From assembly GCA_947179295.1 (NCBI GenBank), contig CAMXAZ010000025.1:1-38233 (forward strand): a DNA stretch of 38,233 nucleotides, written 5' to 3'. The notes under the pieces were generated by a model. It was given only the letters and a program-made list of their open reading frames with translations, was not told the origin of the DNA and did no database searches. This DNA is from an uncultured Muribaculaceae bacterium. Lineage in GTDB: Bacteria > Bacteroidota > Bacteroidia > Bacteroidales > Muribaculaceae. This document shows positions 1 to 18,989 of the stretch, piece by piece (positions within the stretch are counted from its first letter, which is position 1; the number at the start of each line of letters is the position of its first letter). A program made the position numbers and the translations under genes.

Positions 1-672
1 CCAGTAGCAGTTCTTGCCGTTGGGTTCCTTGTAGGGGGGCACGAAGTCCTTGTCGCGCCACCAGAGACCTTCTTTTTCGTTGAAAAGACCGCCGGCAAGA
101 GTGTTGCGACTCCAGCAGTACATGTCCCAGGCTTTTTCGTTGTAGCGCTGGTCACCGGTCAGCTTGCTCATTTTTGCAAGTACGGGCATACCCATCTGGA
201 TAGCGTCGATCCAGGTCCAGTCTTCTACCTGAGGAGTGTTGACGAGCATGTTCATGCAGGCCTTGGTCTTGGTGAGCATGCGGGGTTCGGGGGTCAGATT
301 ATAGAGGTCGATGTAGGTCTGGGCGGCGCAGTAGTTGTCGGCGTTGCGGGTGGTGGTGTCGTCGCGGCGCATGCCCCAGTCGAAACCGTCGGCCCAATTG
401 TAGGCGTAGTCATAGTAACGGTTGTCGGGGTAGATCGAATGGAGAGCCATCAGGCCTTCGAAGTAGACGGCGCGGGTCCATATGTTGGCTTCGTAGACTT
501 TCTTGCGCGAGTAGTAGGGGATTCCGAGCAGCGGATCGGGATGGTTTTTGAGATAGAGATCGTTGACCTTGATGAGGGTCTTGAGTGTCTGTTCGCGGGG
601 AGGGAGCTGTTCGGCCGCCATGCAGGGGAGTCCGAGCAGGATTGCAAGTGCGATGATGATGGTTTTCTTCAT
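1..672 (-). CDS. GH105 unsaturated rhamnogalacturonyl hydrolase (5' part only)
   Basis: This is the N-terminal 224 codons of a gene that runs off the left edge. I translated it by hand from the ATG at 672. It begins with a signal peptide (MKKTIIIALAILLGLPCMAA), so the product is exported. The (alpha/alpha)6-barrel features of the GH105 (YteR/YesR) family follow: W-T-R-A-V-Y-F-E-G near residues 65-73, N-A-D-N-Y-C-A-A-Q-T-Y-I-D-L-Y near 110-124, and W-T-W-I-D-A-I-Q-M-G-M-P, where D156 sits at the usual catalytic Asp. The visible end (N-G-K-N-C-Y-W) is the lead-in to the family's S-R-G-N-G-W motif. GH105 enzymes remove the unsaturated uronic acid left on pectin oligosaccharides by lyases. The gene starts 28 nt after the GH106 gene on the same strand, so the two are probably co-transcribed. 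The main alternative is GH88, a related family. Confidence 0.85.
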   Translation of the reverse strand, partial: MKKTIIIALAILLGLPCMAAEQLPPREQTLKTLIKVNDLYLKNHPDPLLGIPYYSRKKVYEANIWTRAVYFEGLMALHSIYPDNRYYDYAYNWADGFDWGMRRDDTTTRNADNYCAAQTYIDLYNLTPEPRMLTKTKACMNMLVNTPQVEDWTWIDAIQMGMPVLAKMSKLTGDQRYNEKAWDMYCWSRNTLAGGLFNEKEGLWWRDKDFVPPYKEPNGKNCYW

Positions 673-700
673 GGAATTGCAGTGATTGGATTGTTATTGT

Positions 701-3505
701 TTATTTGTTGATTTTTACGGGTATGAGACTCACTGTGGAGTTGAGTCCGGCGGGGACTTCCTCCCAGTCGCCGAACGAGAATGACTTGGCATTGGTTACC
801 GATGCGATGTTGGCGTCTTTGAAGATGCGCCAGTTGACGCCGCGGCGCTCGAAGTCGGCTATGCGGTTGGCCTGGTTGTTGGTCACGCGGACTTCGAGGC
901 GGTTCAGCCCCGGCTTGAGCAGAGAGCCCACGCGGAGGGTGAAGGGGGCTGACCAGGCTTTGCCTGCGTCCTGTCCGTTGACGGTGACTTCGGCGCTGTG
1001 GCGCACGTCACCGAGATCGAGTATCCAGTCAGAGGCCTCGGCAGGATTGTCGAGGCTGAACTCTGCGCTGTAGACAGCGGTGCCGAAGTTCACTTTGGCT
1101 TCCTCGGCGGGCAGTCTGGTCCATGCCGTGAGGGTGTCAGTGGCGAAGGTGCCGCTGATGGCCGGCTGACTGTTTTCAAAGGCTATGCTCCAGCCGCGGT
1201 CGATATTGACAGGCTTGCCGGCAGGCTCTATGTAGCCCCACGGAGCCATTTCAGGCTTCTCGGCGAAAGTTTTCAGCATTATCGATTGGCCGGGCTGCAA
1301 CTGCAGGCGCAGGCTTGTGGAGCCCGGTTCAGACTCATAGGTCTGAGCCAGTCCAGACTCTCCGGTGAGCGGATCGAAGATGCCCACAGCGGCGGCGGGA
1401 GTTGCAAGGGTGACTTTGCCGTCGATGGCATCGCCTTTGAGGTTGGCGAGGAAGTAGTTGAAACCTCCGGCCTCGTTGCGGCGGCGTATCATGGAGATGT
1501 TGCGGTCGGAGCGGAGGGTTTCGGGGCGAAGTCCGGATGCCGTCAGTCCTGACGCGATGTCAGGGGCTGTGATGATGCGGCCTTTGCCTTCGGAGTGGAC
1601 GCATGGCACGGAGCCCATCACCGGAGCGGCCTGCAGAAGGGTCCGGAGTGAATCGAGCCGCTGGTCGTGGCGGCTGAGACCGGGCACTTCAGCGGGCAGA
1701 GAACCGGTTACGATTACCGTTGCACCTTCCTGGGCGAGTGACAGCAGTTTTTTCAGCGTGGCCGGGTGCATGAAGCGCACGGCGGACACGATGATGGCTC
1801 CGTAAGTGGCATCGCCTGTGCCTTTCAGACGTCCGTCTGTGCTGACGGTGAGGGTCTCGGACAGAGCATCGGAAATATAGTCGGGGTCATAGCCGGCGGC
1901 CATGATGTCGGTGACGTGCTGCTTGATGTCGGGCATGCGCTGCTGCATCTTGTGGATGTCAAACATCAGATAGGGATTGCCGCCCTGACGGTGCCAGACA
2001 TCTTCAAGCGGGAAGTAGAGAAGCACGTCATTGTCAGGTGTTCCTGCCGAGAGGAAGGCCTGGCAACGGGCTATGTAGGTGAACAGAGCGTCGGCGTCGC
2101 GCCAGATGCTGTTGGTCGGCGACATGTTGATCGAGGCGTAGAACATCCAGCCGGGGAAGGCCGCGTCCTTGGGCGAATACGGGGCGCCGTGGAAATAGAC
2201 GTGGTTCACGCCTGAACAGAACATCTGGTCGAGTTCGGGCTTGCAGCGGGCCAGAGTGGTGCGGAAATGTTCGGTGAGCCAGGTGAGAGTTTCGGCCGAG
2301 GTGAGTCTCTTGCCGGTGACATGGGCTGCCGAGGAGGCGAATTTCAGCACGGCGGGGTCGGAATCGCTCGGACGCGAGGGACCGTCCTGCACCAGGCCGG
2401 GTATGGAGAAGTCGGTCTGGCCGAATGATTCGCATTCGGGTATGTCGACCGCGGCGTAGAGGTCGATGATATTGGCCGGCGATCCGTGGCTCTGGTTGCG
2501 CACCCGTGCGCCGTGGCGGTGGGAGCGGGCCATCCATACGTCGGTGAAGTTCTCGCGGAGCATTCGGGCGAGGGTGGCGCGGTAGTCGCGCACCACTCGG
2601 CTGCGGAGGCTGTCGTGGTTCTCCTGGTCGAGGAATTCGGGCAGGTAGAGTTCGAGCTTGTAGCCGTGGTCGCGTTCGAATTCCTCGAAGATATTGTCGG
2701 CCCAGTCGGAGCCGTAGACTTCATAGGAGTCGTTGAAGAAGCTGTCGGGGTATGGAGTGCCTGATGAGGCAAACGCGCGGTCGAAGCGGTCGAGATAGCT
2801 GTTGACCGCGGTGCTGTCATAGTGGTTCACCACCAGGCCTTCGCCTCCGGGGGCGGCGCGTTTCACCTTCTGGAAGGTGCGTCCGCTGAAAATGGCATAG
2901 ACTTTCCAGTCGTCTTTGGCCTTGGGGGCTTTCCAGTCGAGCACGGAGTCACGGCGCAGGCGCGAGGTGATGTCGATGCGGCGGTCGCCGTTGACTGCTA
3001 TGATGCGTTGGAGGGTGGCCACTCCCTGCTGCTTCCTGTCAGAGGGACGGACGGTGATTTTGAGCTTCTTGCCGGGGCTTACGGTCCAGCTTTCGGCCAC
3101 ACGCTTGCGTGCGCTTTGTGCGGCGGTCACTTCCGGGCCTCCGAAGGGCCAGCCGGTGCCGTTGTTCATGTCGATCTGCAGGCCGAGGCGCTTGCCTTCG
3201 GCTATGGTGTGGCCGAGCATGTCCATCCACTTCGGCGACAGATAGGATATGTCATTGGCTTCGTTGCCCTTGACTCCGTAGATAGGGGTGATCTCGACTC
3301 CTCCGAGTCCCTGGCGGGCAAACTCTTCGAGGTTGTAGGTAAGACCTTCGGGGTCAACGGCGCTTCCGAGCCACCACCAGCGCACAAAGGGGCGGTTTTC
3401 GGTGGTGACCGGATACCAGTCGGTCACTTCTGCGGCGCTCAGGCATCCGGTGCCTGCGCCGAGCAGAAGGCCGAGTGTAAGGAGGGTTTTATTCTTCAGA
3501 TTCAT
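701..3505 (-). CDS. GH106-type alpha-L-rhamnosidase
   Basis: This 934-residue exported glycoside hydrolase resembles the GH106 (Glyco_hydro_106) family, which removes alpha-L-rhamnose from pectic rhamnogalacturonans. After the signal region come R-W-W-W-L-G-S-A-V near residues 43-50, the G-G-V-E-I-T-P-I-Y-G-V segment near 68-79 and D-M-N-N-G-T-G-W-P-F-G-G-P near 112-124, all typical of the catalytic barrel. A beta-sandwich resembling a sugar-binding domain lies near residues 795-895 (D-L-G-D-V-R-H-S-A-E-V-T-V-N-G). The signal sequence has a Cys at 21 but a poor lipobox (G-T-G-C), so a lipoprotein or a type I signal are both possible. It lies 19 nt downstream of the DUF4450 gene and 28 nt upstream of the GH105 gene. 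The family is fairly secure, the exact linkage cleaved is not. Confidence 0.82.
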   Translation of the reverse strand: MNLKNKTLLTLGLLLGAGTGCLSAAEVTDWYPVTTENRPFVRWWWLGSAVDPEGLTYNLEEFARQGLGGVEITPIYGVKGNEANDISYLSPKWMDMLGHTIAEGKRLGLQIDMNNGTGWPFGGPEVTAAQSARKRVAESWTVSPGKKLKITVRPSDRKQQGVATLQRIIAVNGDRRIDITSRLRRDSVLDWKAPKAKDDWKVYAIFSGRTFQKVKRAAPGGEGLVVNHYDSTAVNSYLDRFDRAFASSGTPYPDSFFNDSYEVYGSDWADNIFEEFERDHGYKLELYLPEFLDQENHDSLRSRVVRDYRATLARMLRENFTDVWMARSHRHGARVRNQSHGSPANIIDLYAAVDIPECESFGQTDFSIPGLVQDGPSRPSDSDPAVLKFASSAAHVTGKRLTSAETLTWLTEHFRTTLARCKPELDQMFCSGVNHVYFHGAPYSPKDAAFPGWMFYASINMSPTNSIWRDADALFTYIARCQAFLSAGTPDNDVLLYFPLEDVWHRQGGNPYLMFDIHKMQQRMPDIKQHVTDIMAAGYDPDYISDALSETLTVSTDGRLKGTGDATYGAIIVSAVRFMHPATLKKLLSLAQEGATVIVTGSLPAEVPGLSRHDQRLDSLRTLLQAAPVMGSVPCVHSEGKGRIITAPDIASGLTASGLRPETLRSDRNISMIRRRNEAGGFNYFLANLKGDAIDGKVTLATPAAAVGIFDPLTGESGLAQTYESEPGSTSLRLQLQPGQSIMLKTFAEKPEMAPWGYIEPAGKPVNIDRGWSIAFENSQPAISGTFATDTLTAWTRLPAEEAKVNFGTAVYSAEFSLDNPAEASDWILDLGDVRHSAEVTVNGQDAGKAWSAPFTLRVGSLLKPGLNRLEVRVTNNQANRIADFERRGVNWRIFKDANIASVTNAKSFSFGDWEEVPAGLNSTVSLIPVKINK

Positions 3506-3524
3506 GTGTGGTCAGCTTAGAGGT

Positions 3525-6500
3525 TCAGGGGCGCTGGAGGGTTATGCCCATCAGGCCGATGACTACGTCGCCTGAAAGTGTCTCGATTTCCAGTGATTCG
3601 AGCTTGCGCTTCGGATCGGCGGGGATGTCAAGCACCACGGCGGCTCCGCCGGGAATTGTGCCTACGATGTCGCCGTCGGCTCCGGTGCTTTCAAGTTCCT
3701 GGCGCTTGCCTACCTCGCGGGCCAGATCGCGTGCCACGTGGCCGGTCTGCAGGTGCATACGGTAGAGCGGCTTGGTGCCGGGAGCGAGGGCGAAGGCATG
3801 GTTGTCGTTATAGAAATCCTGTTCGATCGGCGCCCAGTTGTGGGGATTGACCAGAGGGGTGACGCTCTCGCTGCCGTCTTTGTAGCGGATGCGGATTTTG
3901 CCGTTCTCGATGCCTGACTGCATGTGGTTTGTCGAGCCGGCCATTACGAGATAGAGGTGTGAGGCTTTGCCGCTGAGTTTCACTGAGGCGCGGTCGGGAT
4001 AGTTGTCCCAGAGAGAGGTGTAGATCACGTTGGAGCCTTTGGCCGGAAGGGCGAAGGGGATGCCGAGTTCGGTGACGAGGCGTCCTTTCTCCCGGTCGAG
4101 ACGGCTGCGGAGTCCGGAGTCGTCGATCTCGGCGGTGAGTTTCGGGTGACACCATTCGCCGATGCCCTGCGCGGGGATCTGAAGGGTGGTAACCTGCGGA
4201 CGCGGCGAGAGGTAGCGGTTGCGGAAGATGTCGGTGACAGAGGCGTTGTAGGCCTTGCGCAGGTCTACGGTCTCGCAGCGGGCGGGGTCGATGTCGTCGA
4301 ATCCGGGTGCGGCTACGGCGGTGAAGGGTCTGTGGGCTGAGATTTCGGCGGTCCACCATTTCAGCACACCGTCAGCCATTTCGGTGAATTTCACCGGGCC
4401 TTCCTCACGCACACGGCCTGTGGGGATGGCGGTCAGTTCGCCGGCGGTCTCGATAACCACTTCAAGACGGGGCTCGTTGCCTGCGTTGATGCACAGACGC
4501 GGGGTGCCTATCGAGCTGTCGACATTTTCCCAGGCTACGGTGCGGCCGTTGACTTTGACTGAGCGCACGCCGTGGACGGGCACTGTGAGCAGCACCTGCG
4601 GGGCGAGGCGGTAGCGGTTGTCGATGGTGTAGACCAGACGGTCGCCGTCGCGGCGGAAGCTGTAGGCTATGTCGGGGAGATTAATGGAGGCCGAGTTCCA
4701 GTCGGCGGGGAAACCGGGGATGATCTCCACGCGGGGAGTGGCGGCTGTCATGTCGGGGCGGATGCCGAAGAGGCCTTCGGTGAGGGCGCGGCTCCAGACT
4801 CCGATGGGGTCGGCGAAGTCGCGGTAAGACTCGCCGCGCACGGCGTCATAGTGGCTGATCTGGCCGAAGTTGAGGGGCGATGCGCCCAGATACATGTTGT
4901 CCATCACCACGGCTTTCATCAGCCGGCATGCTTCCTCGCTGCGTCCGGCCTGCCAGTAGGCGAGGGCGGTGTGCATCACTTCGGCGATGGCCACGTTGTT
5001 GATGCTCCAGGAGTAGGGTTTCCAGTTGGTGGTGGAAATGGTGGAGATGTTGTCTACTCCGCTGTCGGAGAGCACGGGGATGTGGGGGATCACGCTGTCG
5101 ACATAGCAGGTGGCGGCGTAGGCCTGGAAGGGGTCGGCGATCTCGGAGTCGATGGCGTGGTAGATGGTCCAGACTGCGGCCGAGGGGTGGAGACGCTGTT
5201 TGCCTCCGGCATCCTTGAATTCGGCCCAGTGGCCGCGTTCGGGCATCCAGAGGGTGGCGTCGATGGCTTTGCCGATGGCTTCGGCTTCATCGAGATAGGG
5301 GGTGGGGTCTTCGCCTATTATCTGAGCCACGCGGGCGGCCATGAGGTTGGCGAAGCGGTTGTAGGCCGAGGAGTGGGTGACGGCGCCGCCGCTGTAGTAG
5401 AGGGCATCACTGGCCCAGATGCAGCAGTAGGCGTCATAGAGGTGGTCGCCGTCAGGGTCGAAGTTTAGTTTTTCCCAGGCGAGATGGCGTTTGATCACCG
5501 GGAAGAAGCGGCGCATGGCTGCGGTGTCGCCTGTGTGGCGGAAGTGGCGCATGAGGGCGTCGATGTAGACGAGATTCATGTCGTAGTGCGACATTTCGTC
5601 TTTCTTTCCCGGACGGCGGCAGATGTAGCCGTTGCTGTACATGGGTGTTCCCCAGCGCTTTTCGGCCCGCGCGAGGTTGAGGGTGCTGTCCTGACAGGGA
5701 TGCTGCAGGGTGGCGGGGATGTCGGTCACCTGATTGTCGGCATAGGTGGTGAAATGGGTGAGGGCGCGGTCGTGGCGGCCTATGGCGTTGCCTACGTAGG
5801 CTCCGCGCCATCCGAGGTGGGGAGTGCGCCAGCCTATCGAGCCGTGGAGCCATGCCTGTCCGCTCCAGATGCCGTCAGCGGCCACTGACATGGCGCTGCC
5901 TATTGGGTTGAGCCAGGGATCGGGGGTGGAGATGGAGACGGCCGATGCCAGAGCGGCTCTTTCGCTCTCGGCCTGCTTCATCATGGCGGGGATGGAGAAG
6001 CCGGCGGGGATCACGGGCGAGGGGATCAGGGCTATGTATTTGCTTTCGCCGGGGGCGAGGACTATCTCGCCTTCGTAGACCGGGAGCTCGCTGATGCGTG
6101 AGCCGGCGGCGGGTATGAGCAGCGAGAGCTGTGCGCGCTGCTTGTTGCCGTATTCCACTCTGACGGTGTCGCCGTTGACGGTGAAAATGTTGCCCTTGCA
6201 GTATTCGGGCTTGAGGTCGAAGCAGGTGGGATCATCGACACCGAGGTCGCCCTCGCGGAAGAATTTCTTGTCGGCCACGCCTCCGAAGCGCACGGGCACT
6301 GTGACGGCCGATGCCGTTGTATTGGTCAGGCGCCAGAGTGCCATGTCGGTGCTGCGCATCACCTGGGCTTCAACCTCGATGCCGCCCTGGGAGTAGTCCA
6401 TGCGGCCGGGGGTGTAGCGCGCGGTGCATGAGCCCTGCGGGAGGGTCAGATGGAGGTTGCCGCCCATGCGGGGAAGGTAGATGCCGAATTCGGGCATGTC

Positions 6501-6701
6501 GCTGCACTCCATGCGGAAACCTGAGTGGGCGCCGTAGAGGGCGCGGTTGAATTTGGTCTGTCCGTCGGTGCAGACGGCCGAGATACCGTCGGGGCGGTAG
6601 TGGGTCTTGCGGATCTCTGTATTAGATGCCGCGCCTGCCCTGAGAGGGGCAAGCGTGGCTGAGAGGGCCATGCACAGCATGGCGGCTTTTGTCAACTTCA
6701 T
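3525..6701 (-). CDS. DUF4450-like exported protein, probable (alpha/alpha)6-barrel glycoside hydrolase
   Basis: This 1058-residue protein starts with a signal peptide of about 25 residues ending A-G-A-A. Residues about 30-250 form a beta-rich N-terminal domain. The middle is helical and reads like an (alpha/alpha)6 barrel: G-S-I-G-W-R-T-P-H-L-G-W-R-G near 287-300, then Y-D-A-Y-C-C-I-W-A-S-D-A near 425-440. A C-terminal beta domain follows. I associate this architecture with Bacteroidetes DUF4450 proteins, which have no activity that I can name. Its place between a GH-L-like gene and GH106/GH105 genes argues for a role in pectin or glycoprotein side-chain removal. Start: the ATG directly preceding the signal peptide. 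A strong hairpin lies just upstream (6721-6746). The enzyme class is an inference from fold and context. Confidence 0.6.
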   Translation of the reverse strand: MKLTKAAMLCMALSATLAPLRAGAASNTEIRKTHYRPDGISAVCTDGQTKFNRALYGAHSGFRMECSDMPEFGIYLPRMGGNLHLTLPQGSCTARYTPGRMDYSQGGIEVEAQVMRSTDMALWRLTNTTASAVTVPVRFGGVADKKFFREGDLGVDDPTCFDLKPEYCKGNIFTVNGDTVRVEYGNKQRAQLSLLIPAAGSRISELPVYEGEIVLAPGESKYIALIPSPVIPAGFSIPAMMKQAESERAALASAVSISTPDPWLNPIGSAMSVAADGIWSGQAWLHGSIGWRTPHLGWRGAYVGNAIGRHDRALTHFTTYADNQVTDIPATLQHPCQDSTLNLARAEKRWGTPMYSNGYICRRPGKKDEMSHYDMNLVYIDALMRHFRHTGDTAAMRRFFPVIKRHLAWEKLNFDPDGDHLYDAYCCIWASDALYYSGGAVTHSSAYNRFANLMAARVAQIIGEDPTPYLDEAEAIGKAIDATLWMPERGHWAEFKDAGGKQRLHPSAAVWTIYHAIDSEIADPFQAYAATCYVDSVIPHIPVLSDSGVDNISTISTTNWKPYSWSINNVAIAEVMHTALAYWQAGRSEEACRLMKAVVMDNMYLGASPLNFGQISHYDAVRGESYRDFADPIGVWSRALTEGLFGIRPDMTAATPRVEIIPGFPADWNSASINLPDIAYSFRRDGDRLVYTIDNRYRLAPQVLLTVPVHGVRSVKVNGRTVAWENVDSSIGTPRLCINAGNEPRLEVVIETAGELTAIPTGRVREEGPVKFTEMADGVLKWWTAEISAHRPFTAVAAPGFDDIDPARCETVDLRKAYNASVTDIFRNRYLSPRPQVTTLQIPAQGIGEWCHPKLTAEIDDSGLRSRLDREKGRLVTELGIPFALPAKGSNVIYTSLWDNYPDRASVKLSGKASHLYLVMAGSTNHMQSGIENGKIRIRYKDGSESVTPLVNPHNWAPIEQDFYNDNHAFALAPGTKPLYRMHLQTGHVARDLAREVGKRQELESTGADGDIVGTIPGGAAVVLDIPADPKRKLESLEIETLSGDVVIGLMGITLQRP

Positions 6702-6720
6702 TTACAAAAGTGATGGTTTT

Positions 6721-6746
6721 GGAGGGTGCTGTCAGAAGCACCCTCC
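6721..6746 (-). other. Intercistronic hairpin before the DUF4450 gene
   Basis: A perfect 10-bp stem (ggagggtgct / agcaccctcc) closes a 6-nt loop. It lies 19 nt upstream of the start codon at 6701 and 86 nt after the stop codon of the preceding gene. No T-run follows on the minus strand, so it is not a standard intrinsic terminator. It may stabilise a processed mRNA end or lower read-through into the distal genes. Confidence 0.7.
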
Positions 6747-6832
6747 GATTGTGGATTCAAGATAATTCCTTATTGACGCGCTGAGGCGGTGCGGGGCGCT
6801 TTCACGCGCCTGATCCGGCTCTCGAACGGCTC

Positions 6833-8938
6833 TTAGGGGAGGGGCTTGATGCCTTCCCAGCGCACGTCCCAGGTGCCGTCTTTCGGGAAACCGGGATTTT
6901 CGGTCTCGCAGCCGTCCCAGCCGGCACACATGAGGGCCACTGCGGTGAGCAGACCGCCGTTGCCGGGCAGATAGCAGCGCAGACGGTTGTCCTGATAGTT
7001 GTGGCCGTTGGGGAGATAGGTGTTGGTGCGCTTATCCATGAGCAGGGCGTTGACAGCCTTTTCGGGATGGCCGAGGCGCACGGCGTTCATTGCTGTGGTG
7101 GGGTAGTCCCAGCCCCAGGTCTTGTCCCAGTTCCAGTTGTCATAGACCCAGTCAAAGGTGTTGTCCATGATGTCGGCTTTCACCAGGGGTGAGTTGGGGA
7201 GGATGCCTACGGCGGCGAGCACGGCCATGTGGTCGGAGGTCAGGCGGATGTCGCTGTAGGTCTCAGGAGCTGTCTCGGCGGCGAGATAGAGGCTGTCTTT
7301 TGCGGCGAGGGGCGAGAGCGATGCTATGATTTCGTCCCATTTCTCCACGCGGGGTTCACCCTTGCGCTCGCGCCACTGCTGGGCGGTGTTGAGGGCGAAG
7401 TGCCAGTAGGCCAGTTCGAAGGGCGGATTGACGGTTTCGGCAGCGCGGAGGGTTTCCTGTGCGGGGATGATGCCGCGGAGTATGTAGCGGCCGGTTGAAT
7501 CCTGTTCGGCGAAGTCGGCCATGAATTCGGCTGTGCCCTGGATGAGGGGATAGTAGCGGTTGACCATCGCGCTGTCGGGGTTGGCGCGGTAGAGGAGCTC
7601 GGCCAGATAGATCAGGTGGGGCTGCTGCCAGATGAGGAAGGAGCCTACCTTTGAGGGGGCTTCCATGCCTGAGGGGTCGGTCATCTTCATCCAGCGGAGG
7701 CCTTTGAAGCCCTGGCGCTCGGCAATCTCGCGGGCCACTCCCTGGGAGCTTTCATACCAGGGGAGGGTGCGGTTGAGCAGGTCTTCGTGGCCGTAGAGGG
7801 CAAACTGTGCCTGGTGCCACCAGATCATTTCCATGTGGAATTTTCCGAACCATGAGTTGTAGGTGAGGCCGGTTTCCTGGGGAGGGGTGGAGCCTGCACA
7901 CTGGATGGCGAGGAGGTACTGCGAGAGCACCACGCGGCGTTCGAGTTCCTTGGCGCGCGGGTCGGTGCAGTGGCTGAAGTCAACCACTCCGCCCTTGGTC
8001 CAGAAGTCTTTCCAGTAGGCCGACGAGGCGTCGCGGGTCTGGGCCACGGTGGGGGCTGCGTCCTGCGGCACGTCGGGGAGGAAGGTTGCGGTCACGGTCC
8101 ACTCGTTGTCGGCCGGGGTGAGCGTGAGCAGGTTGCGGCCGTCCTGGCGGAGTGAAGCGTTGCCGCTCCAGGCGAGGTCTATATAATAGGTGGTTGAGTC
8201 GAGGCTGTGGCGCAGGAGGGCGCTGTTGGCGTCGGCGCGGACAATGTCTGTCGCGTGGAGTGAGTCGGCGGTCCAGTTGCAGGCATCGTCACAGTGTCCG
8301 CCGGTCGGATAGGGGAGGCGGATTGCCAGGGGCAGATGCTTTTCGTCTTTGATCGAGGCGGCGAGCATGTCTTTTTCGGGGTGGACGTAGGTGCGGACAG
8401 CCACGGGCGAGCCATCGACCTTGAAGTCAGAGCGGATTTCGCCGGTCCACATGTCGAGTGTCTGGTCGATGTCGGTGATGCGTTCGGGCTGGAGTCCGGC
8501 AAAGCCTATTGCTCCGAGGTGGAGACGGTGGGGATTGACGCGATACCAGTTTGCTGCGTCGTGAGGACGTCCGGCTTCATTGAACTGCACTGCGTAGGGC
8601 TCTTTGCGGCCACGGCCGAAGTCATAGTCCTTGAGGGCTTCTTCGGGACGGAGATTGTCAGGGTTGGCGAAACTGTGCCATCCCCACTGTGCCTGAGTGC
8701 CGAGGGGCACACCCTTACTGTAGAGTTCGGGGAATGTCTGGAGGCCGGTGACATCGACTGTCACGGCGAACTCACCGTTGCCTACTGAGAGTGAGGCGAG
8801 GGTGTCGATGGCGGTGATGTGGGGGTTGTTTCTTTCCACTAAAGCCTGACGGTCAATGGCTGATGCAGATCCGCAGGAGTAAAGAGCCGAGAGCGGCAAC
8901 GTGAGAGCCGCTGCATAGAATAAGTTTTTGAAAGTCAT
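6833..8938 (-). CDS. Surface lipoprotein, clan GH-L-like (GH65/GH95-type) putative glycoside hydrolase
   Basis: This 701-residue lipoprotein has an SPII signal with Cys at residue 22 (L-Y-S-C), followed by a long beta-rich N-terminal domain (L-A-S-L-S-V-G-N-G-E-F-A) and an (alpha/alpha)6-barrel-like region. The barrel segment S-W-F-G-K-F-H-M-E-M-I-W-W-H-Q-A-Q-F recalls the W-H-x-E-M motifs of six-hairpin hydrolases and phosphorylases such as GH65 and GH95. Later motifs include W-G-W-D-Y-P-T-T-A-M-N-A and Y-L-P-G-N-G-G-L-L. I cannot assign a CAZy family with certainty. It is the first gene of the operon that continues with the DUF4450, GH106 and GH105 genes, so it probably acts on the same pectic substrate at the cell surface. 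The promoter lies in the repeat element just upstream. Confidence 0.6.
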   Translation of the reverse strand: MTFKNLFYAAALTLPLSALYSCGSASAIDRQALVERNNPHITAIDTLASLSVGNGEFAVTVDVTGLQTFPELYSKGVPLGTQAQWGWHSFANPDNLRPEEALKDYDFGRGRKEPYAVQFNEAGRPHDAANWYRVNPHRLHLGAIGFAGLQPERITDIDQTLDMWTGEIRSDFKVDGSPVAVRTYVHPEKDMLAASIKDEKHLPLAIRLPYPTGGHCDDACNWTADSLHATDIVRADANSALLRHSLDSTTYYIDLAWSGNASLRQDGRNLLTLTPADNEWTVTATFLPDVPQDAAPTVAQTRDASSAYWKDFWTKGGVVDFSHCTDPRAKELERRVVLSQYLLAIQCAGSTPPQETGLTYNSWFGKFHMEMIWWHQAQFALYGHEDLLNRTLPWYESSQGVAREIAERQGFKGLRWMKMTDPSGMEAPSKVGSFLIWQQPHLIYLAELLYRANPDSAMVNRYYPLIQGTAEFMADFAEQDSTGRYILRGIIPAQETLRAAETVNPPFELAYWHFALNTAQQWRERKGEPRVEKWDEIIASLSPLAAKDSLYLAAETAPETYSDIRLTSDHMAVLAAVGILPNSPLVKADIMDNTFDWVYDNWNWDKTWGWDYPTTAMNAVRLGHPEKAVNALLMDKRTNTYLPNGHNYQDNRLRCYLPGNGGLLTAVALMCAGWDGCETENPGFPKDGTWDVRWEGIKPLP

Positions 8939-8979
8939 CGGTTCCGATACTGTTATGGTAAATTTTAAGGTATTTGGCG

Positions 8980-9010
8980 CAAAGTTACAAATTTACCCGC
9001 AGACTGCAAA
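8980..9010 (-). promoter_or_regulatory. Promoter of the glycoside hydrolase operon
   Basis: On the minus strand there is a -33 TTTG (9007-9010) and a -7 TAACTTTG (8980-8987) with a 19-nt spacer, matching the Bacteroidetes consensus. A second -7 candidate, TAAATTTG (8988-8995), overlaps it. The start codon at 8938 would lie about 35 nt from the transcription start. The same promoter with identical spacing occurs in copy B. Confidence 0.7.
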
Positions 9011-9112
9011 ATTTGGGTTTAAGGGGGGGATTTGGGAGATTTGGGAGCTTTGGGAGATTTGGGAGGTTTGGGAGATTTGGGAGCTTTGAGAAATTTGGGA
9101 GTTTTGGGGTTG

Positions 9113-9133
9113 GGCCAATTGGGGCAATTGGCC
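9113..9133. other. Perfect 9-3-9 hairpin of repeat copy A
   Basis: ggccaattg and caattggcc are exact reverse complements separated by ggg. It lies 31 nt downstream of the hepT stop codon. There is no T-run, so terminator function is uncertain. The equivalent hairpin in copy B differs by a compensatory base pair. Confidence 0.85.
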
Positions 9134-9164
9134 TGATAAGTCTAATTGGAGAGCCTAAGTATGT

Positions 9165-9515
9165 TTAGTCGGTAAAGGTTTTTAGAATTTCGATCAAGCT
9201 TGATCTCAGTGGCAGAAGGTCTGTTTCAATAGTGGCGAGTATTCTTTCGGCTTTGATCTGATAATAACCGTGCACAAGAACGTGCCTCATGCCGATGACT
9301 GCTGACCAAGGTATTTCAGGGTGACGGCTGCGGGTTGATTCTGTCAGCTTATAGGCAGCCTCTCCGATAATTTCCAGACATTTCACCATCCCATAAAACA
9401 GAATCGGATCGGAAGTCAGAGCTTCTTCCGGATAGCGTGACTGTGCGGAGTCAATTTTGTCAATGGCTTCAATCATGTGTAGAAGCCGTTCGCGGTCACG
9501 GATTTTCTCTCTCAT
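9165..9515 (-). CDS. hepT: HepT-like HEPN (DUF86) toxin
   Basis: This 116-residue all-helical protein belongs to the HEPN/DUF86 family. It carries the R-X4-H-X-Y ribonuclease motif as R77, H82 and Y84 (G-M-R-H-V-L-V-H-G-Y). In characterised systems the HEPN protein is an RNase toxin and the partner nucleotidyltransferase AMPylates the motif tyrosine to silence it. Its start overlaps the last 20 nt of mntA, which is typical translational coupling. All three motif residues are intact, so the toxin is probably functional. Flanking repeats suggest that the pair is a discrete cassette. Confidence 0.9.
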   Translation of the reverse strand: MREKIRDRERLLHMIEAIDKIDSAQSRYPEEALTSDPILFYGMVKCLEIIGEAAYKLTESTRSRHPEIPWSAVIGMRHVLVHGYYQIKAERILATIETDLLPLRSSLIEILKTFTD

Positions 9516-9807
9516 AGATCAGGATTTTGTCGCGGTTGACTGACGGGAGGGCATAGGGCATGAGGGTGTCAAGTTCAACAAGGTCTACTGCCCGGTGGAG
9601 CATCTTGGTTAGTGCGGAATACATCTGCCCCATTGTGAAAAGTGTTATATTCTGGCTTTTGTCGAATTCAAGCAGTATGTCGACATCGCTTTTATCAGAT
9701 TCTTCTCCACGGGAGAATGATCCGAATAGCCATACGCGGCTGACCGGCTGTGTCGAGAAAAAGTCTTTCAGTCGCGGAATCAGTGTTGATGCGGTCTCTT
9801 TGGTCAT
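9496..9807 (-). CDS. mntA: MntA-like minimal nucleotidyltransferase antitoxin
   Basis: This 103-residue protein has the complete minimal nucleotidyltransferase signature: G29-S30 followed after ten residues by D41-V-D43 (GSX10DXD), and a third acidic residue likely at D75 (A-V-D-L-V-E). In studied MntA-HepT pairs it transfers AMP groups to the HEPN toxin and so neutralises it. It precedes hepT, with a 20-nt overlap. The likely promoter lies in repeat copy B, giving a leader of about 20 nt. Confidence 0.9.
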   Translation of the reverse strand: MTKETASTLIPRLKDFFSTQPVSRVWLFGSFSRGEESDKSDVDILLEFDKSQNITLFTMGQMYSALTKMLHRAVDLVELDTLMPYALPSVNRDKILIYERENP

Positions 9808-9832
9808 AACTGCAAGAGTTTGGCGGTTTTCG

Positions 9833-9863
9833 CAAAGTTACAAAATTGCCCGCAGACTGCAAA
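9833..9863 (-). promoter_or_regulatory. Promoter of mntA-hepT
   Basis: A minus-strand -33 TTTG (9860-9863) and -7 TAACTTTG (9833-9840) are separated by 19 nt. The arrangement is the same as in copy A. Confidence 0.7.
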
Positions 9864-9938
9864 ATTTGGATTTAAGGTGGGGGTTGGGAGTTTTGGGAGT
9901 TTTGGGAGTTTTTGGGAGATTTGGGAACTTTGGGGTTG

Positions 9939-9959
9939 GGCTAATTGGCCCAATTAGCC
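9939..9959. other. Perfect 9-3-9 hairpin of repeat copy B
   Basis: ggctaattg and caattagcc are exact reverse complements separated by gcc. Compared with copy A, one stem pair changes from C-G to T-A on both sides, so pairing is preserved. Confidence 0.85.
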
Positions 9960-9991
9960 TAATAAGAAGTCCATTAAGGGCTCTCAATGAT

Positions 9992-10033
9992 AAAAAGGCA
10001 GCCCCGCCATAACCGGTCGGTCGGGGCGGGGCT
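9992..10033 (-). terminator. Intrinsic terminator of the SusC/D operon
   Basis: On the minus strand, agccccgcc pairs with ggcggggct (10025-10033 with 10000-10008), followed by GCC and a T5 run. It lies 78 nt after the stop codon of the BACON gene. Confidence 0.8.
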
Positions 10034-10111
10034 TGGGTCAGGTATGGTTGCTGTTTGTCTGTATTGTTGTCAGATTAGCGGACCATTTTTTGTCCGGTTG
10101 CCGAGATTGTC

Positions 10112-11566
10112 TCAGCGGGCAAGCATGGTGTCGGAATTAAGTATTGTTCCGAGTGCGGGTTTTGCTGAAGCTATTTTTGCTGCAGCCGTCTTCTTGAGGG
10201 GTGTTGCAGCTGTGGTTTCTTCGGTATTTCCGCCTTCTTCCGGAAGAGTCTGCATTCTCATCAGCATAGGTTCTTCCATTTGCTGAATGTATCCGGCGTT
10301 TGAATCTTTTGATGCGGGCTGAGTCCTAAACGCCTGGATCTGCATGGCTGACAGGGCGTAGTCAAATGTTTTTGCATCAACAAATGCAGCTGCTGTGATG
10401 CCCTTGCCTTGTGATTCAAAGTAGGTGAACGAAGCATTCATGCTCGGCTTGGTATCCCAAGTATAGAATATTGCATCTTCTTCAGGATCATAGAATGTAT
10501 AACACATATAAGCGAAATATGAGCTCCATTTGCCAAGATAGGCTCCTCCGGCAAGATTAAGGGTCTTGGTTGCGTCATTCCATTTCAACGGTGCTGACAA
10601 TTTATATGCGCCTACGGTGAAATCAAGAGTGTAATTGCTGCCATCGCGTTTCATTGTGGCCGGGAAATAGTAGTTTTTGCCGTCAGTGGGATCAGTGAAT
10701 ATCCACTGGTATTCGCCTGCAATATCCTTGTCAAAATCATACTGAGAAACGGTCAATGATCCTTCAGTGCCTTCAAGACTGTAGGAGAGTGAGCCTGAGC
10801 GCATGTGGCCGGAGTTGTTTTCATCAACTGTGATGGTCACTGTCTCGTTGGCGAAGGTTGCGTGGATCCAAGATGACTCTGTTTCGAACTGAACAGGGAT
10901 GTCAGAGGGGAAGTCATAGGTATAGGTTTTGGCATCATCATTCTGGCTGATTTCAGTAACCTTTACCAAGGGGAAGATGAGGGGTCCTTGATTGACTGTA
11001 ATGTCATAGGTGAGATTGCCGACAGAGATTGTGACAATGCCGGTGCGTGCCTGCAGTTTGGTGTTGCGGTCAGCCTCAATTGTCAAGATGCCGTCAGTCA
11101 AAGAGGCTTTGAGCCATTCAGAATCGGAAGTTACCGACATCGGGATTGAAGCATTGGCTTCATAGCTATTAGTCCATGCCTTAGATTCGATGTCGATTTC
11201 ACTTACATCAGCGAATTTGAAGATAATGCCTGACTGGATAATGGAGATTTCATCTGTTGCATTGCCGCATTTTACGATGATTGTTCCGGTTCGCCCGGTT
11301 AAGGCGTTGTTCTGGTCAACGGCGATGTCAATGCGGTTGCCGTCAACTGTGGCTGTGATCCATTCGTTGTCAGTGGTCACAGTCACCGGGCCTTTTGCTT
11401 CGAAGGTGATCGAGCCGGTAGAAGCCGAGGCGGGGAAAGATGTCTCATGGCCTGTGATTGTGATGGCCGATTCAGTTGTGATATCCGGTGCTTCATAATC
11501 GTTGCATGCGGTAAATCCGGTTGCCGCGATCAAAGCAAACAGGATTGATCTATATGTCTTTTTCAT
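10112..11566 (-). CDS. BACON-domain surface lipoprotein
   Basis: This 484-residue lipoprotein (Cys at 21, F-T-A-C) carries three BACON-like repeats at about residues 32-112, 115-194 and 198-277. Each has the pattern E-W/S-W-I-x-A-x followed by a paired beta strand and R-x-G-x-I/L. A separate C-terminal beta domain (about 280-420) ends with a Ser/Thr/Ala-rich tail. BACON modules are carbohydrate- or mucin-associated spacer domains in Bacteroidetes surface proteins. It is the last gene of the SusC/D operon, 85 nt after the DUF4302 gene with a hairpin in the gap, so it probably acts as an accessory surface binding protein. No catalytic motif is visible. Confidence 0.75.
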   Translation of the reverse strand: MKKTYRSILFALIAATGFTACNDYEAPDITTESAITITGHETSFPASASTGSITFEAKGPVTVTTDNEWITATVDGNRIDIAVDQNNALTGRTGTIIVKCGNATDEISIIQSGIIFKFADVSEIDIESKAWTNSYEANASIPMSVTSDSEWLKASLTDGILTIEADRNTKLQARTGIVTISVGNLTYDITVNQGPLIFPLVKVTEISQNDDAKTYTYDFPSDIPVQFETESSWIHATFANETVTITVDENNSGHMRSGSLSYSLEGTEGSLTVSQYDFDKDIAGEYQWIFTDPTDGKNYYFPATMKRDGSNYTLDFTVGAYKLSAPLKWNDATKTLNLAGGAYLGKWSSYFAYMCYTFYDPEEDAIFYTWDTKPSMNASFTYFESQGKGITAAAFVDAKTFDYALSAMQIQAFRTQPASKDSNAGYIQQMEEPMLMRMQTLPEEGGNTEETTAATPLKKTAAAKIASAKPALGTILNSDTMLAR

Positions 11567-11602
11567 TTTCGTTACAATTTTAAAATTTGATGATTCTCTG
11601 CG

Positions 11603-11635
11603 GAATCCGTTCCCTCTTGCTGAGGGATCGGATTC
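11603..11635 (-). other. Intercistronic hairpin between DUF4302 and BACON genes
   Basis: A 14-bp stem with one mismatch (gaatccgttccctc / gagggatcggattc) closes a 5-nt loop. No T-run follows on the minus strand. It occupies most of the only long gap in this operon. Confidence 0.75.
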
Positions 11636-11651
11636 AACAGACAGTCATTTA

Positions 11652-12962
11652 TTATTTTTTCTGGAGATACTGGACATAGGTGATCTGGCCGGTGTTGTTG
11701 AGTCTCCAAGGTGCGGGAGCGATGTAATAGGTGTCATCTCCAGGATAAGTCGCGATGAAATAGAATGAGTTGACATTTGACGGCGATGCCGCGTTGGGTT
11801 CCGCAACGAATCTCTTGGGGTTTGATTCGCTCTTGACAAAGTCCATGCCGGCCTGAGTGGATGCATAGAAGCTACCGCCTGTTCCGCCTGCGTAGAAGAA
11901 CACGTTCATGTCGCTGCCGGAGTACAGCTGCTGGCCTGTGAGGCTCAGGCAACCTTTGGATTTGTTATACTTGGCCACGAGATCGAAACCGTTCGGAGTT
12001 GTCATTGTGATCAGGCCGGTTGCGGGATCCGGGGTGAGGGTGACATTTGAAGTGTAGATACCAAAGAAGAAGGCAAAAGTGAATTCACCGGAGAATTCCT
12101 CGATAAATGAATATGTTGCGGGGAGGATTCCGGTTATGCTGACTTGGTTGCCGTTTGAATCAGTACCAGAGAAGAGATATCCGTCAGGGTTGAAAGAGAG
12201 TTCGCTGATGGTTGCTCCATTGACAGTGATGGGAGTCACGAAACGTATGCCGGTTGCAGTAGGCAGATAAAATGCTTCGTCAGAGAAAGCTTCCGCTCCT
12301 TCTTCTGTTCCGCCCCAGAAGATAGTCATAGAGCGGACGCCAAGATCTATGCTCATGGTTATCGGGAGTTCGCCGATTGTTCCGGAGCCTTCTGCCACAT
12401 AGATATTGTCATTCATTGCGCAGATAGCATTGAGCGTGGTTGCAGGATCTTCGTTCAGACGGCGGAGATACATGGTGTTGCCGGTGCGTTTGCCTTGCAG
12501 AGTGATGAGATCTTCGGTCACATCCATGATCATGAATTCAAAATCGCCGTCCATAGCCTGATAGCCATCAGAGTCACCCCAGGGAGTAGCGAAGTAGTGC
12601 ATGAGTGTGTTGTAGGAGTCGAATGTAAGAACCGGACCGTTGTCATTTGTCAGCTTATAGAGGCTTTTTTCAAATTGGCCGGGTGCGATTTCAGAACCGA
12701 CATTTACCTGGGAATCATCAAACTGGAGGGTATATATATAGCTGCCGTAGGATTGGTATTTATCAGGAGTGTAGTCAAATAACCATCCGTTAGGGGCGCT
12801 TGTCAGGACGGCCTTGGCGTTGTCAAGAGTGGCCTGAAGTCTTGTTGAAGATGATTCATCGAATATATCTTCCTGATCTTTCAGACAGGACTGGAAGACC
12901 AGTGTCGAGAATGCAAGCAGAGTTGCTATGAATAATTTATTGAGTCGCATGGTTTGAATCAT
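11652..12962 (-). CDS. DUF4302 lipoprotein
   Basis: This 436-residue lipoprotein (Cys at 26, F-Q-S-C) resembles the Bacteroidetes DUF4302 family. The N-terminal part A-T-L-D-N-A-K-A-V-L-T-S-A-P-N-G-W-L-F-D-Y is characteristic of that family. The function of the family is not known to me. Members tend to lie next to SusC/SusD pairs with the zinc metallohydrolase lipoprotein, as here. An alternative start is the Met at residue 5 (12950), which gives a more usual signal peptide. It starts 12 nt after the metallohydrolase gene, which indicates co-transcription. The rest is beta-rich and without recognisable catalytic residues. Confidence 0.75.
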   Translation of the reverse strand: MIQTMRLNKLFIATLLAFSTLVFQSCLKDQEDIFDESSSTRLQATLDNAKAVLTSAPNGWLFDYTPDKYQSYGSYIYTLQFDDSQVNVGSEIAPGQFEKSLYKLTNDNGPVLTFDSYNTLMHYFATPWGDSDGYQAMDGDFEFMIMDVTEDLITLQGKRTGNTMYLRRLNEDPATTLNAICAMNDNIYVAEGSGTIGELPITMSIDLGVRSMTIFWGGTEEGAEAFSDEAFYLPTATGIRFVTPITVNGATISELSFNPDGYLFSGTDSNGNQVSITGILPATYSFIEEFSGEFTFAFFFGIYTSNVTLTPDPATGLITMTTPNGFDLVAKYNKSKGCLSLTGQQLYSGSDMNVFFYAGGTGGSFYASTQAGMDFVKSESNPKRFVAEPNAASPSNVNSFYFIATYPGDDTYYIAPAPWRLNNTGQITYVQYLQKK

Positions 12963-12974
12963 TTAGAAGATAGA

Positions 12975-13880
12975 TTATTTTACAGTGAGATCAGTGAGAT
13001 CCACTTTGCCTGACATTACTTCTTTCTGACGACGCTGGATGACGCTGCGCAGGTCATCAATGTCGATATTGAAAGTAGTGTACAGATATTCTTTCACGAG
13101 GTCGAGTTTCTGATTGATGAGATCTGCACCTGAAGCGCCGGCGGTTGTGATCAGGTCATTCCAAGAAGCTTCATCGTAAGTAATATAGATAGACATTACT
13201 TCGGCAAAGTCTTCTGTGTAGGAATGCTGTGCGTAAGAAGAAACATAGCCACGTGCTTCAAAACCGGAGTTGTAAGGTGGCTCGCTCCAAAGGTCTGCCA
13301 CATATGAATCATAAGTGACTGTCTGGAATGCGGAGGGCATCGGACGAGTCTGATTGAGGATGTGGGTGAATTCGTGGTGGATTGTCTTGAAGTAATAATA
13401 GTTCATTGCATCCGCTCCCATTTCAAGGCACTGTGGGAGGTAGTTAAGACCTGCAAGGAAGATCTTACGTCCACCTTCAGCGGTGCCGAGAATGAATGTA
13501 CCGTTGTTCTTGTATTCCCATTCACCGACGGTGTAGAACATCTTGGGGAAGTACTGACGGGTGAAGTCAACACCGGCTACTTCGTTGTAGGTCTCGACGC
13601 AAAGATATTTTACAAGGTGTGCCATAGTAATGGCATCTTCGTAGCGAGCAGGTACGAGATAATAATCAAAGTCACCTTCGATGTCCTCGTAGCGGTATTT
13701 GAAGTCAATATTGTAGGGCTTGTTGTAGTTTGCTTCGAGCCACTTGTCGAAATCGTTTTTGACGGTATTGCCGGTAACGATGACTGATTTTCCGGTGTCC
13801 GGATCGTCAGATTCGCAAGCGGTAAAGGCTATAGCCGAAACAGCCATCAAAGCAAAGCTTAATATTTTGTTGAATTTCAT
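12975..13880 (-). CDS. Substrate import-associated zinc metallohydrolase lipoprotein
   Basis: This 301-residue lipoprotein (Cys at 22, F-T-A-C) has a zinc-binding HExxH motif at 169-173 (H-E-F-T-H) and a likely third ligand in Y-T-E-D-F-A-E near 221-227. This fits the SusC/D-associated HExxH lipoproteins (putative zinc-binding metallopeptidases). The natural substrate is unknown: it may be a peptide bond in a host or dietary glycoprotein, or it may process the locus's own cargo. It lies 44 nt after susD and 12 nt before the DUF4302 gene. Both histidines and the first glutamate are present, so it is probably active. The family is secure, the substrate is inferred only. Confidence 0.85.
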   Translation of the reverse strand: MKFNKILSFALMAVSAIAFTACESDDPDTGKSVIVTGNTVKNDFDKWLEANYNKPYNIDFKYRYEDIEGDFDYYLVPARYEDAITMAHLVKYLCVETYNEVAGVDFTRQYFPKMFYTVGEWEYKNNGTFILGTAEGGRKIFLAGLNYLPQCLEMGADAMNYYYFKTIHHEFTHILNQTRPMPSAFQTVTYDSYVADLWSEPPYNSGFEARGYVSSYAQHSYTEDFAEVMSIYITYDEASWNDLITTAGASGADLINQKLDLVKEYLYTTFNIDIDDLRSVIQRRQKEVMSGKVDLTDLTVK

Positions 13881-13924
13881 TGTTTTTGTCTTTTTGATGG
13901 TTAACAGTAATGATCAACTGTGTC

Positions 13925-15508
13925 TTAGCGTTCATTAGGCTGAATTCCGGCATCGCGGACTTTCAGAGGAATCTGGAAAATACGACGCTTGTCATCTTTC
14001 GAAAGGAAGTCAGTGATGTGGTCAGGCTTGCCGGCTGCATTCATGTAGCGGCGGGGAATCTCGATGCCATAGCGCTTGATGTCGAACCAGCGGAGGCCGT
14101 CCTGAAGAGTTTCTATTCGACGGAAGGCGAGCACACACTGGAGCATGCATTCTTGAGTAGAGCCTTCGGCATCAATGGTAAATTCAGGATTGAGATGCTT
14201 TTTCATTCCGGATGCCATGCGGGCATCATCATCATAGCAGTATGTCTTTCCATTGTAGAAAGTTGTGATCATGTCTGGTGTCAGAACTCTGTTTGTTCCT
14301 GCAATATTCTTGGCCCAGATGGTAAGGTCTGCAGCTGCTTCGTCAAAGCGATGGAGCATTATGTAGGCTTCAGCTCTCGAAAGAAGGGCTTCATCAGCAG
14401 TGAAGATTGCAAGCACGGTATGAGGATAGCCAATATTCTGTACAGGATCTGTGTATTCAAACAGGTAGGGAGTCTTACGGAAAAGAAGTTTATCGAGACC
14501 TCCGGTGTATTTGCTTGTTATCGAGCTTCTTACTGTAGAGCCCCAGACGTTGGTGGCACGAGCATCTTCATTTTCAGATGTGTAGTTGCTGTGTGTGTAA
14601 CGTGAATAAGCTCCGTAGGGACCAAATGCAACGCCAATCTGAGACTGTGCAGTCTGCAGGAGCAGGTTGCAGTTGGCGGTGGCACCGATATAGAAATTCT
14701 CGCGGGCTTTTGAACCGTTGACAGGAAGAGTGCCGAATGTCACCCAGTCGCGGAGCATGTTATTTGGTGCGGATCCGAGTACTTTGTTGGCTGCATCAAT
14801 CACTTTTTCCCATTGTTCAGTATAGAGATAGAAGCGTGTGGCGAATGCGTAGGCCGCTTTCTGGTTGAAATGGTATTTGGGTACAGAATAATATGAATCG
14901 CTTACGCGTTCCAGCCCTTCAGTGAGGTCTTTTTCGATCTGAATGTAGAAGTCGGCGAGATTTCCGCGTTCATACTTGGGCAGCAGCTCGGTTTCGGGAT
15001 GTGTCATGTACGGAAGACCGAGGTCTTCTGCTGCATTTTGTGTCCAGTGCTTGCAGAAGAGGTTTGCAAGCATAAAATGGTTATAAGCACGGCAGAGGAG
15101 AGCTTCACCGCGAAGTGCGGAAAGTGTTATGCTTGCATCCGGACCGCCAAGCTGGTCGATGGCGTCAATGGCCTGATTTGCAGATGCGATTGCTATGTAG
15201 GAGGAAGCCCAATACTCATTGAGTGATTCGTCAGACTCCTCAAGTTCGTCTTTCCAGGCGTAAGCATCGTCTATCCAACGGTCTGTGTCAGGACTTTGGA
15301 GCTCAACGTCATCAACGTTGTCAGATGACAGTTCAGTTACGAACGCGCATTGGGTTGAGGGATAGGCAGAGACAAGAATGCTCTTGATTTTTTCCTCGTC
15401 ACTGAGAGTCGCGCGGTTGTCGGGCATGGTGTCGAGGTAGTCGTCGCATGATGAGAGGGCTACGGTCGGCAGAGCAAGCGCGAATGCGTATTTTATATAT
15501 TTGTTCAT
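13925..15508 (-). CDS. SusD/RagB family nutrient-binding lipoprotein
   Basis: This 527-residue lipoprotein (Cys at 21, L-S-S-C, then D-D-Y-L-D-T) shows the start typical of SusD/RagB proteins, a helical TPR-like body (A-S-A-N-Q-A-I-D-A-I-D, L-R-G-E-A-L-L-C-R-A-Y-N-H-F) and a C-terminal R-R-I-E-T-L-Q-D-G-L-R-W-F-D-I-K-R-Y-G. SusD forms the lid over the SusC barrel and presents ligand for TonB-driven import. It starts 22 nt after the susC gene. The ligand cannot be predicted from sequence. Neighbouring metallohydrolase and BACON genes favour a protein or glycoprotein cargo, which is weak inference. Confidence 0.95.
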   Translation of the reverse strand: MNKYIKYAFALALPTVALSSCDDYLDTMPDNRATLSDEEKIKSILVSAYPSTQCAFVTELSSDNVDDVELQSPDTDRWIDDAYAWKDELEESDESLNEYWASSYIAIASANQAIDAIDQLGGPDASITLSALRGEALLCRAYNHFMLANLFCKHWTQNAAEDLGLPYMTHPETELLPKYERGNLADFYIQIEKDLTEGLERVSDSYYSVPKYHFNQKAAYAFATRFYLYTEQWEKVIDAANKVLGSAPNNMLRDWVTFGTLPVNGSKARENFYIGATANCNLLLQTAQSQIGVAFGPYGAYSRYTHSNYTSENEDARATNVWGSTVRSSITSKYTGGLDKLLFRKTPYLFEYTDPVQNIGYPHTVLAIFTADEALLSRAEAYIMLHRFDEAAADLTIWAKNIAGTNRVLTPDMITTFYNGKTYCYDDDARMASGMKKHLNPEFTIDAEGSTQECMLQCVLAFRRIETLQDGLRWFDIKRYGIEIPRRYMNAAGKPDHITDFLSKDDKRRIFQIPLKVRDAGIQPNER

Positions 15509-15530
15509 TTTACTGATTCTTTAGAGTGGA

Positions 15531-18869: not shown

Positions 18870-18989
18870 AATAAGACAGATATAAATGATAATGATAGAT
18901 ATATTGGTAGTGATAGATTGTGCCGGATTGGAAGAAGTCTGCGATTGGAACATTTTTTAACCAATCGCCCTAATTTAGCTTTGGAGTTG

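Follow-up and report, generated by a model that had tools for sequence, protein, structure and literature searches.

The window, that is, the whole 38,233-nucleotide stretch of DNA analysed here, comes from a genome of the genus Duncaniella and lies on one contig (C25) of a 116-contig assembly. Read along the minus strand, the locus runs from a BACON gene through spacer B, mntA, hepT and spacer A to a GH95-like gene (Table 1). The mntA-hepT pair is complete in the list of open reading frames (ORFs), with the two genes overlapping by 20 bp, and Pfam matches were obtained to NTP_transf_2/Polbeta for mntA and to HepT-like for hepT. The adjacent HEPN (PF01934) and MNT (PF01909) domains score 73.9 and 41.9 bits, both above the Pfam cut-offs, and when read against the published definitions the GSX10DXD motif of MntA and the RX4HXY motif of HepT are both intact. 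From its genes, the cassette is predicted to be a toxin-antitoxin pair of the ordinary MntA-HepT kind (type VII). The GH95-like protein shows 99% amino-acid identity to its counterpart in Duncaniella muris. An operon of ~9 kb parts the GDSL-like gene from the cassette in the window and from the GH95-like gene in D. muris.

Table 1. Features of the cassette locus and its surroundings, in window coordinates.
Feature	Position	Strand	Remarks
GH95-like gene	6833-8938	-	Downstream of cassette; GH95 match below Pfam cut-off
Spacer A	8939-9164		226 bp, from hepT stop to GH95-like start
Copy A promoter	8980-9010	-	TTTG 9007-9010, 19-nt gap, TAACTTTG 8980-8987; faces GH95-like gene
Copy A 9-bp array	9025-9108		TTTGGGAGN on plus strand, CTCCCAAAN in transcript; 9.3 units
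Copy A hairpin	9113-9133	-	Inside 9-bp-period tract; -12.7 kcal/mol, z -3.7
hepT	9165-9515	-	HEPN toxin; ORF, Pfam, RX4HXY motif (RHVLVHGY)
mntA	9496-9807	-	Antitoxin, minimal nucleotidyltransferase; ORF, Pfam, GSX10DXD motif
Spacer B	9808-10111		304 bp, from BACON gene stop to mntA start
Copy B promoter	9833-9863	-	TTTG 9860-9863, 19-nt gap, TAACTTTG 9833-9840; faces mntA
Copy B 9-bp array	9884-9934		5.6 units
Copy B hairpin	9939-9959	-	-10.7 kcal/mol, z -1.8
Intrinsic-terminator-like hairpin with U-rich tail	~10000-10033		In spacer B
Operon: TonB-plug, SusD-like, Mx1 peptidase, DUF4302, BACON	10112-18953	-	Pfam, genome comparison
GDSL-like gene	19435-20283	+	Elsewhere in Duncaniella directly adjoins cassette or GH95-like gene

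Spacers A and B are direct copies lying 853 bp apart, with the cassette between them. Over 104 nt (8978-9081 and 9831-9934), the copies are 78% identical in an ungapped comparison and 88% identical by BLAST (E 2.8e-29). The local alignment of the two spacers scores 142, against a maximum of 32 in 200 shuffles. When the window was cut into 375 further pieces of 300 bp and these were compared with spacer A, only four, all overlapping spacer B, scored above 29. The longest exact match between the two is 21 bp. Both copies present the same order of promoter block, 9-bp array, linker and hairpin, and they share a 35-bp promoter core with two differing positions, the CTCCCAAAN array, the CCCAACCCC linker and the hairpin, which lies within a second tract of 9-bp period, apart from the TTTGGGAGN array. 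The likeness does not depend on the arrays alone; a score of 57, with a shuffle mean of 14.6, is reached by the 33 nt that precede the -7 box. The preliminary description of the locus, a complete mntA-hepT pair between two direct copies of a composite element, is confirmed by the ORFs, the Pfam matches, the 88% BLAST match and the shared order of parts. The hairpin was rejected as a conserved part of the element, the corresponding D. muris spacer folding otherwise and no better than its shuffles (z -0.95).

The promoter block, read on the minus strand, is likely to be the promoter of the next minus-strand gene at lower coordinates. Measured from the start of the -7 box, and with the initial bases of the start-codon region counted in, the core precedes mntA by 36 nt and the GH95-like gene by 52 nt. 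Copy A may be the ancestral promoter of the GH95-like gene, with copying from A to B; its spacer is not clearly closer to the GH95-like promoters of other species than to unrelated promoters.

To find an empty site, positions 8700-10400 of the window were searched against 27 Duncaniella genomes, and a match was observed in D. muris DSM 103720 (contig NZ_PUEC01000015.1; G004:C7). The comparison of occupied and empty sites is one of a single genome of the present species with a single genome of D. muris. Window positions 8700-9081 match the D. muris contig at 94% and 9833-10124 at 87%, the two matches overlapping on one 100-bp element. The outer flanks are kept in D. muris, with a single spacer and no cassette, and window positions 1-9081 are 95.2% identical to the D. 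muris sequence. The D. muris spacer is 324 bp long, and its positions 18-324 are covered by B on the left (243/280 identical) and A on the right (130/143), leaving nothing unexplained. No match to MntA or HepT was found in the D. muris genome at E ≤ 0.001. A strain with one element left and no cassette, which had been sought from the outset, is therefore represented by D. muris, with the same flanks. The structure of the site fits the product of recombination between A and B and, equally, a site before insertion.

Beyond the element, window positions ~9999-10111, the 113 bp after the BACON gene that include the terminator-like hairpin, are identical in D. muris. This identical stretch borders BACON proteins of 47% identity on one side and DNA of 95% identity on the GH95-like side. 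Across 10112-13880, the BACON, DUF4302 and Mx1 proteins are 47-60% identical to those of D. muris, with flanks at 94-95%; from these identities, this end of the operon may either have diverged fast or have been exchanged relative to D. muris.

The cassette is also found at this locus in two other Duncaniella species (G026 and G016), where the order is a divergent GDSL gene, mntA-hepT and the GH95-like gene. Their cassettes have mntA promoters of their own, unrelated to those described here, and no flanking spacer elements. Identities to the proteins of G016 and G026 are 74% and 69% for MntA, 73% and 62% for HepT, and 85% and 81% for the GH95-like protein, and thus fall in the same order. Four further genomes (G010, G001, G006 and G009) have no cassette, and the gap between the GDSL and GH95-like genes is just 158-358 bp. 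On the tree of the GH95-like gene, in which 11 of 20 rows were unscored, the three cassette carriers are scattered and at least three changes are needed, so that repeated gain and a single gain followed by several losses are equally parsimonious. Vertical descent of the cassette agrees with the way the identities rank, whereas the three or more changes on the tree speak against it. A further locus (L049; G007:C11:64500-69500, cassette near 2437-2745, minus strand) has a cassette upstream of a GH3 gene, with mntA intact and, behind it, a hepT of which just the two ends are left, fused in frame; the toxin has apparently lost its middle while the antitoxin remains.

The presence of one spacer and the absence of the pair in D. 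muris make it probable that the pair is gained and lost through recombination of one copy with the other. The reading that we prefer, at a probability of roughly 60%, is that an ordinary MntA-HepT cassette lies between paralogous spacers, that recombination between these spacers adds or removes it, and that it has been deleted in D. muris. Copy B would supply the promoter of mntA-hepT, and copy A that of the GH95-like gene. Judging from the literature, HepT would be an RNase toxin held inactive by MntA through AMPylation. Recombination between A and B would delete 853 bp, amounting to one spacer and both cassette genes at once, and would leave behind a hybrid spacer. The loss would be clean because the hybrid spacer retains a promoter for the GH95-like gene. 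D. muris is taken as the deletion product because two other Duncaniella species have the cassette at this position; as the position between the GDSL and GH95-like genes looks ancestral, loss in D. muris is slightly favoured, the direction of the change being unproven. The longest exact match between A and B, given above, suggests that the present rate of recombination should be low. One possible origin of the second copy would be an exchange between cassette-bearing and cassette-free sister lineages.

The reverse course, in which the ancestor resembled D. muris and the present lineage acquired the cassette with a second spacer, for example from incoming DNA or a circle carrying both, is possible at odds well short of even. 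The single-spacer state of D. muris makes a simple starting point, and the cassette is absent from the same gap in four other Duncaniella. In the promoter core, A diverges from B about as much as from D. muris, which means that the copying of the spacer does not clearly predate the divergence of the two species, and this near-equal likeness also speaks for gain. Against it, the cassettes of G016 and G026 stand in the corresponding position and have identities that fall as for the GH95-like gene, and no donor with such a spacer was found in the 27 Duncaniella genomes.

The shared spacer might instead be a transcription insulator, in which the hairpin and a C-rich, G-poor transcript would act as a Rho-dependent terminator separating operons and which gene conversion would have kept or copied at both sites. 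Among all 80-nt windows of the 38 kb, C exceeds G most strongly in the transcript through array A; spacer B comes third when separate places are ranked. A consensus scan found no intrinsic terminators, including 3′ of hepT, and the same scan also misses the strong hairpin at 10000-10033. We consider this account unlikely, as its support is purely compositional and the length and sequence of the array differ strongly among A, B and D. muris. Such arrays are also present within a D. muris open reading frame (contig C5). Rfam gave only sub-threshold matches (E ≤ 5) and no family at gathering level, and a known RNA was rejected for the spacer on these matches.

Separate parts of the element do recur elsewhere. 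A pattern of three TTTGGGAGN units with ≤2 mismatches was found in 12 of 297 Muribaculaceae genomes (4 of 30 genera), with 3 genomes for the reversed control, and the linker pattern with ≤2 mismatches in 4 of 27 Duncaniella genomes, with 1 hit for the control. These arrays and linkers lie away from the cassette and lack the promoter core, whether in the present genome, D. muris or other Muribaculaceae, and apart from the open reading frame mentioned above they occupy various intergenic gaps. The array is most readily interpreted as a 9-bp minisatellite that belongs to this bacterial family and is separate from the promoter core. A search of the literature gave nothing relevant on Muribaculaceae minisatellites, and none was found on tandem repeats of D. 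muris or on Duncaniella toxin-antitoxin systems. Arrays of the CTCCCAAAN type also occur as inverted pairs, tens of bases apart (L062, G000:C47:19673-19891; L190, G256:C53). The length of an intergenic array of CCAATTAGN and linker differs between the two species (L178, D. muris G004:C25; L180, G000:C21), at sites that appear to correspond and that have the same convergent genes on either side.

The 35-bp core, at ≤3 mismatches, is present in two copies here, in one copy in D. muris and in 0 of the 25 other Duncaniella genomes, and the BLAST matches of spacer A elsewhere in its own genome are to the array or linker only. This confinement of the core to one locus indicates that the composite is not a dispersed family. 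A REP- or MITE-like family was rejected for the same reason: many copies of the whole element would be required, and both copies of the core lie at the cassette locus. No transposase or terminal inverted repeat was seen next to the cassette among the Pfam-annotated neighbours and the window repeats, and the flanking repeats are long and unequal, in contrast to the short and exact target duplications of transposons. That the composite is a landing or recombination site belonging to a dispersed repeat family or mobile element, as the array and linker at further intergenic sites might suggest, is very improbable given the locus-confined core and the cassettes of G016 and G026, which have no such repeats around them at the same locus (scores 22 and 22).

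The preliminary description had offered both a duplicated intergenic element framing the pair and a family of repeats serving as a landing or recombination site. The first is supported, as the copies are locus-specific and the sister species has a single copy and no cassette, and the second falls with the absence of the core elsewhere in the 27 Duncaniella genomes and from the recurring parts. Elements occurring nowhere else and a cassette fixed in all relatives had been named as arguing against any mobile or repeat-family reading; the former holds for the core, and the latter does not, the cassette being absent from D. muris and four others.

To ascertain whether direct repeats are common around such cassettes, the 400 bp upstream and downstream of each Muribaculaceae cassette were compared. 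At first look, 5 of 23 cassettes exceeded the 99th percentile of 484 mismatched pairs. The extended set comprised 58 cassettes, which remained from 89 loci with an MntA match after removal of 25 in which no HepT was found, 2 with a short flank and 4 duplicates. At a cut-off of 36, set after the first look, direct repeats were observed at 7 of the 58, at 1 of 164 ordinary gene units and at 7 of 187 neighbouring units, or 5 of 185 when L183 and L211, which are cassette genes themselves, are left out. The excess gives a Fisher p of 0.009 against neighbours and 0.0004 against ordinary units. It comes largely from the first 22 cassettes (5); the later 36 contributed 2, and this follow-up alone is not significant (p 0.17 against pooled controls).

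In the clearest further cases, a 21-bp exact repeat that includes the -7 box flanks the cassette of G008, and a 40-bp terminator-like hairpin flanks that of G248; three relatives of G248 with the hairpin at that boundary (G338, G339 and G340) show a single hairpin, and the stretch that was read contains no cassette. Two of the seven are doubtful as landing-site duplications: L089/L278, whose repeats have further copies in the same genome, and L255, whose repeats are internally repetitive; the gene beside L255 was rejected as a recombinase, having no Pfam match. The cassette at L278 (G149:C111) is framed by a 263-bp repeat that carries a promoter; two additional copies of the initial part of this repeat lie ~2 kb away, surrounding a masked stretch. 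Searches for empty sites of the G008 and G149 cassettes gave no decisive single-copy site. It is decidedly doubtful that Muribaculaceae MntA-HepT cassettes in general come and go in a transposase-free manner, through recombination between landing-site duplications that often include the promoter or terminator of a neighbour. If true, the cassette and the displaced gene would both keep a control region, since the duplication includes it. The wider pattern is a hint and is not established.

MntA-HepT is the most abundant predicted toxin-antitoxin family, and a clean natural pair of occupied and empty sites is now available for it in D. muris, a cultured gut species, and the sister of that species. 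This pair allows a direct test of whether toxin and antitoxin can disappear together harmlessly when the toxin is neutralised by stable chemical modification. The locus also calls for caution, as low-complexity arrays and promoter copies near a cassette can mimic a mobile element even though they arise by local duplication.

Deletion of a gene block between direct repeats belongs to general bacterial recombination, and the present case resembles it in having two direct copies with the block and one copy without it; it differs in that the Duncaniella copies are just ~88% identical. Tn3-family transposons carry toxin-antitoxin pairs (PMC7157771), and the Duncaniella pair would share with these a mobile history; no transposase-like gene or terminal inverted repeat such as a transposon would have was seen among the neighbours of the cassette. 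The Bacteroides sigma-ABfr promoter is described as TTTG at about -33 and TAnnTTTG at -7 (PMC7366714). Both spacers show TTTG, 19 nt and TAACTTTG, with no notable departure from that description, the Duncaniella promoters being predicted by consensus match. The experimentally studied MntA-HepT pair is SO_3165/SO_3166 of Shewanella oneidensis, with the GSX10DXD and RX4HXY motifs (PMC7641770). Compared with the pair as characterised in that source, the Duncaniella cassette, known here from its genes alone, has the same domain families, gene adjacency and both motifs but is flanked by duplicated promoter spacers.
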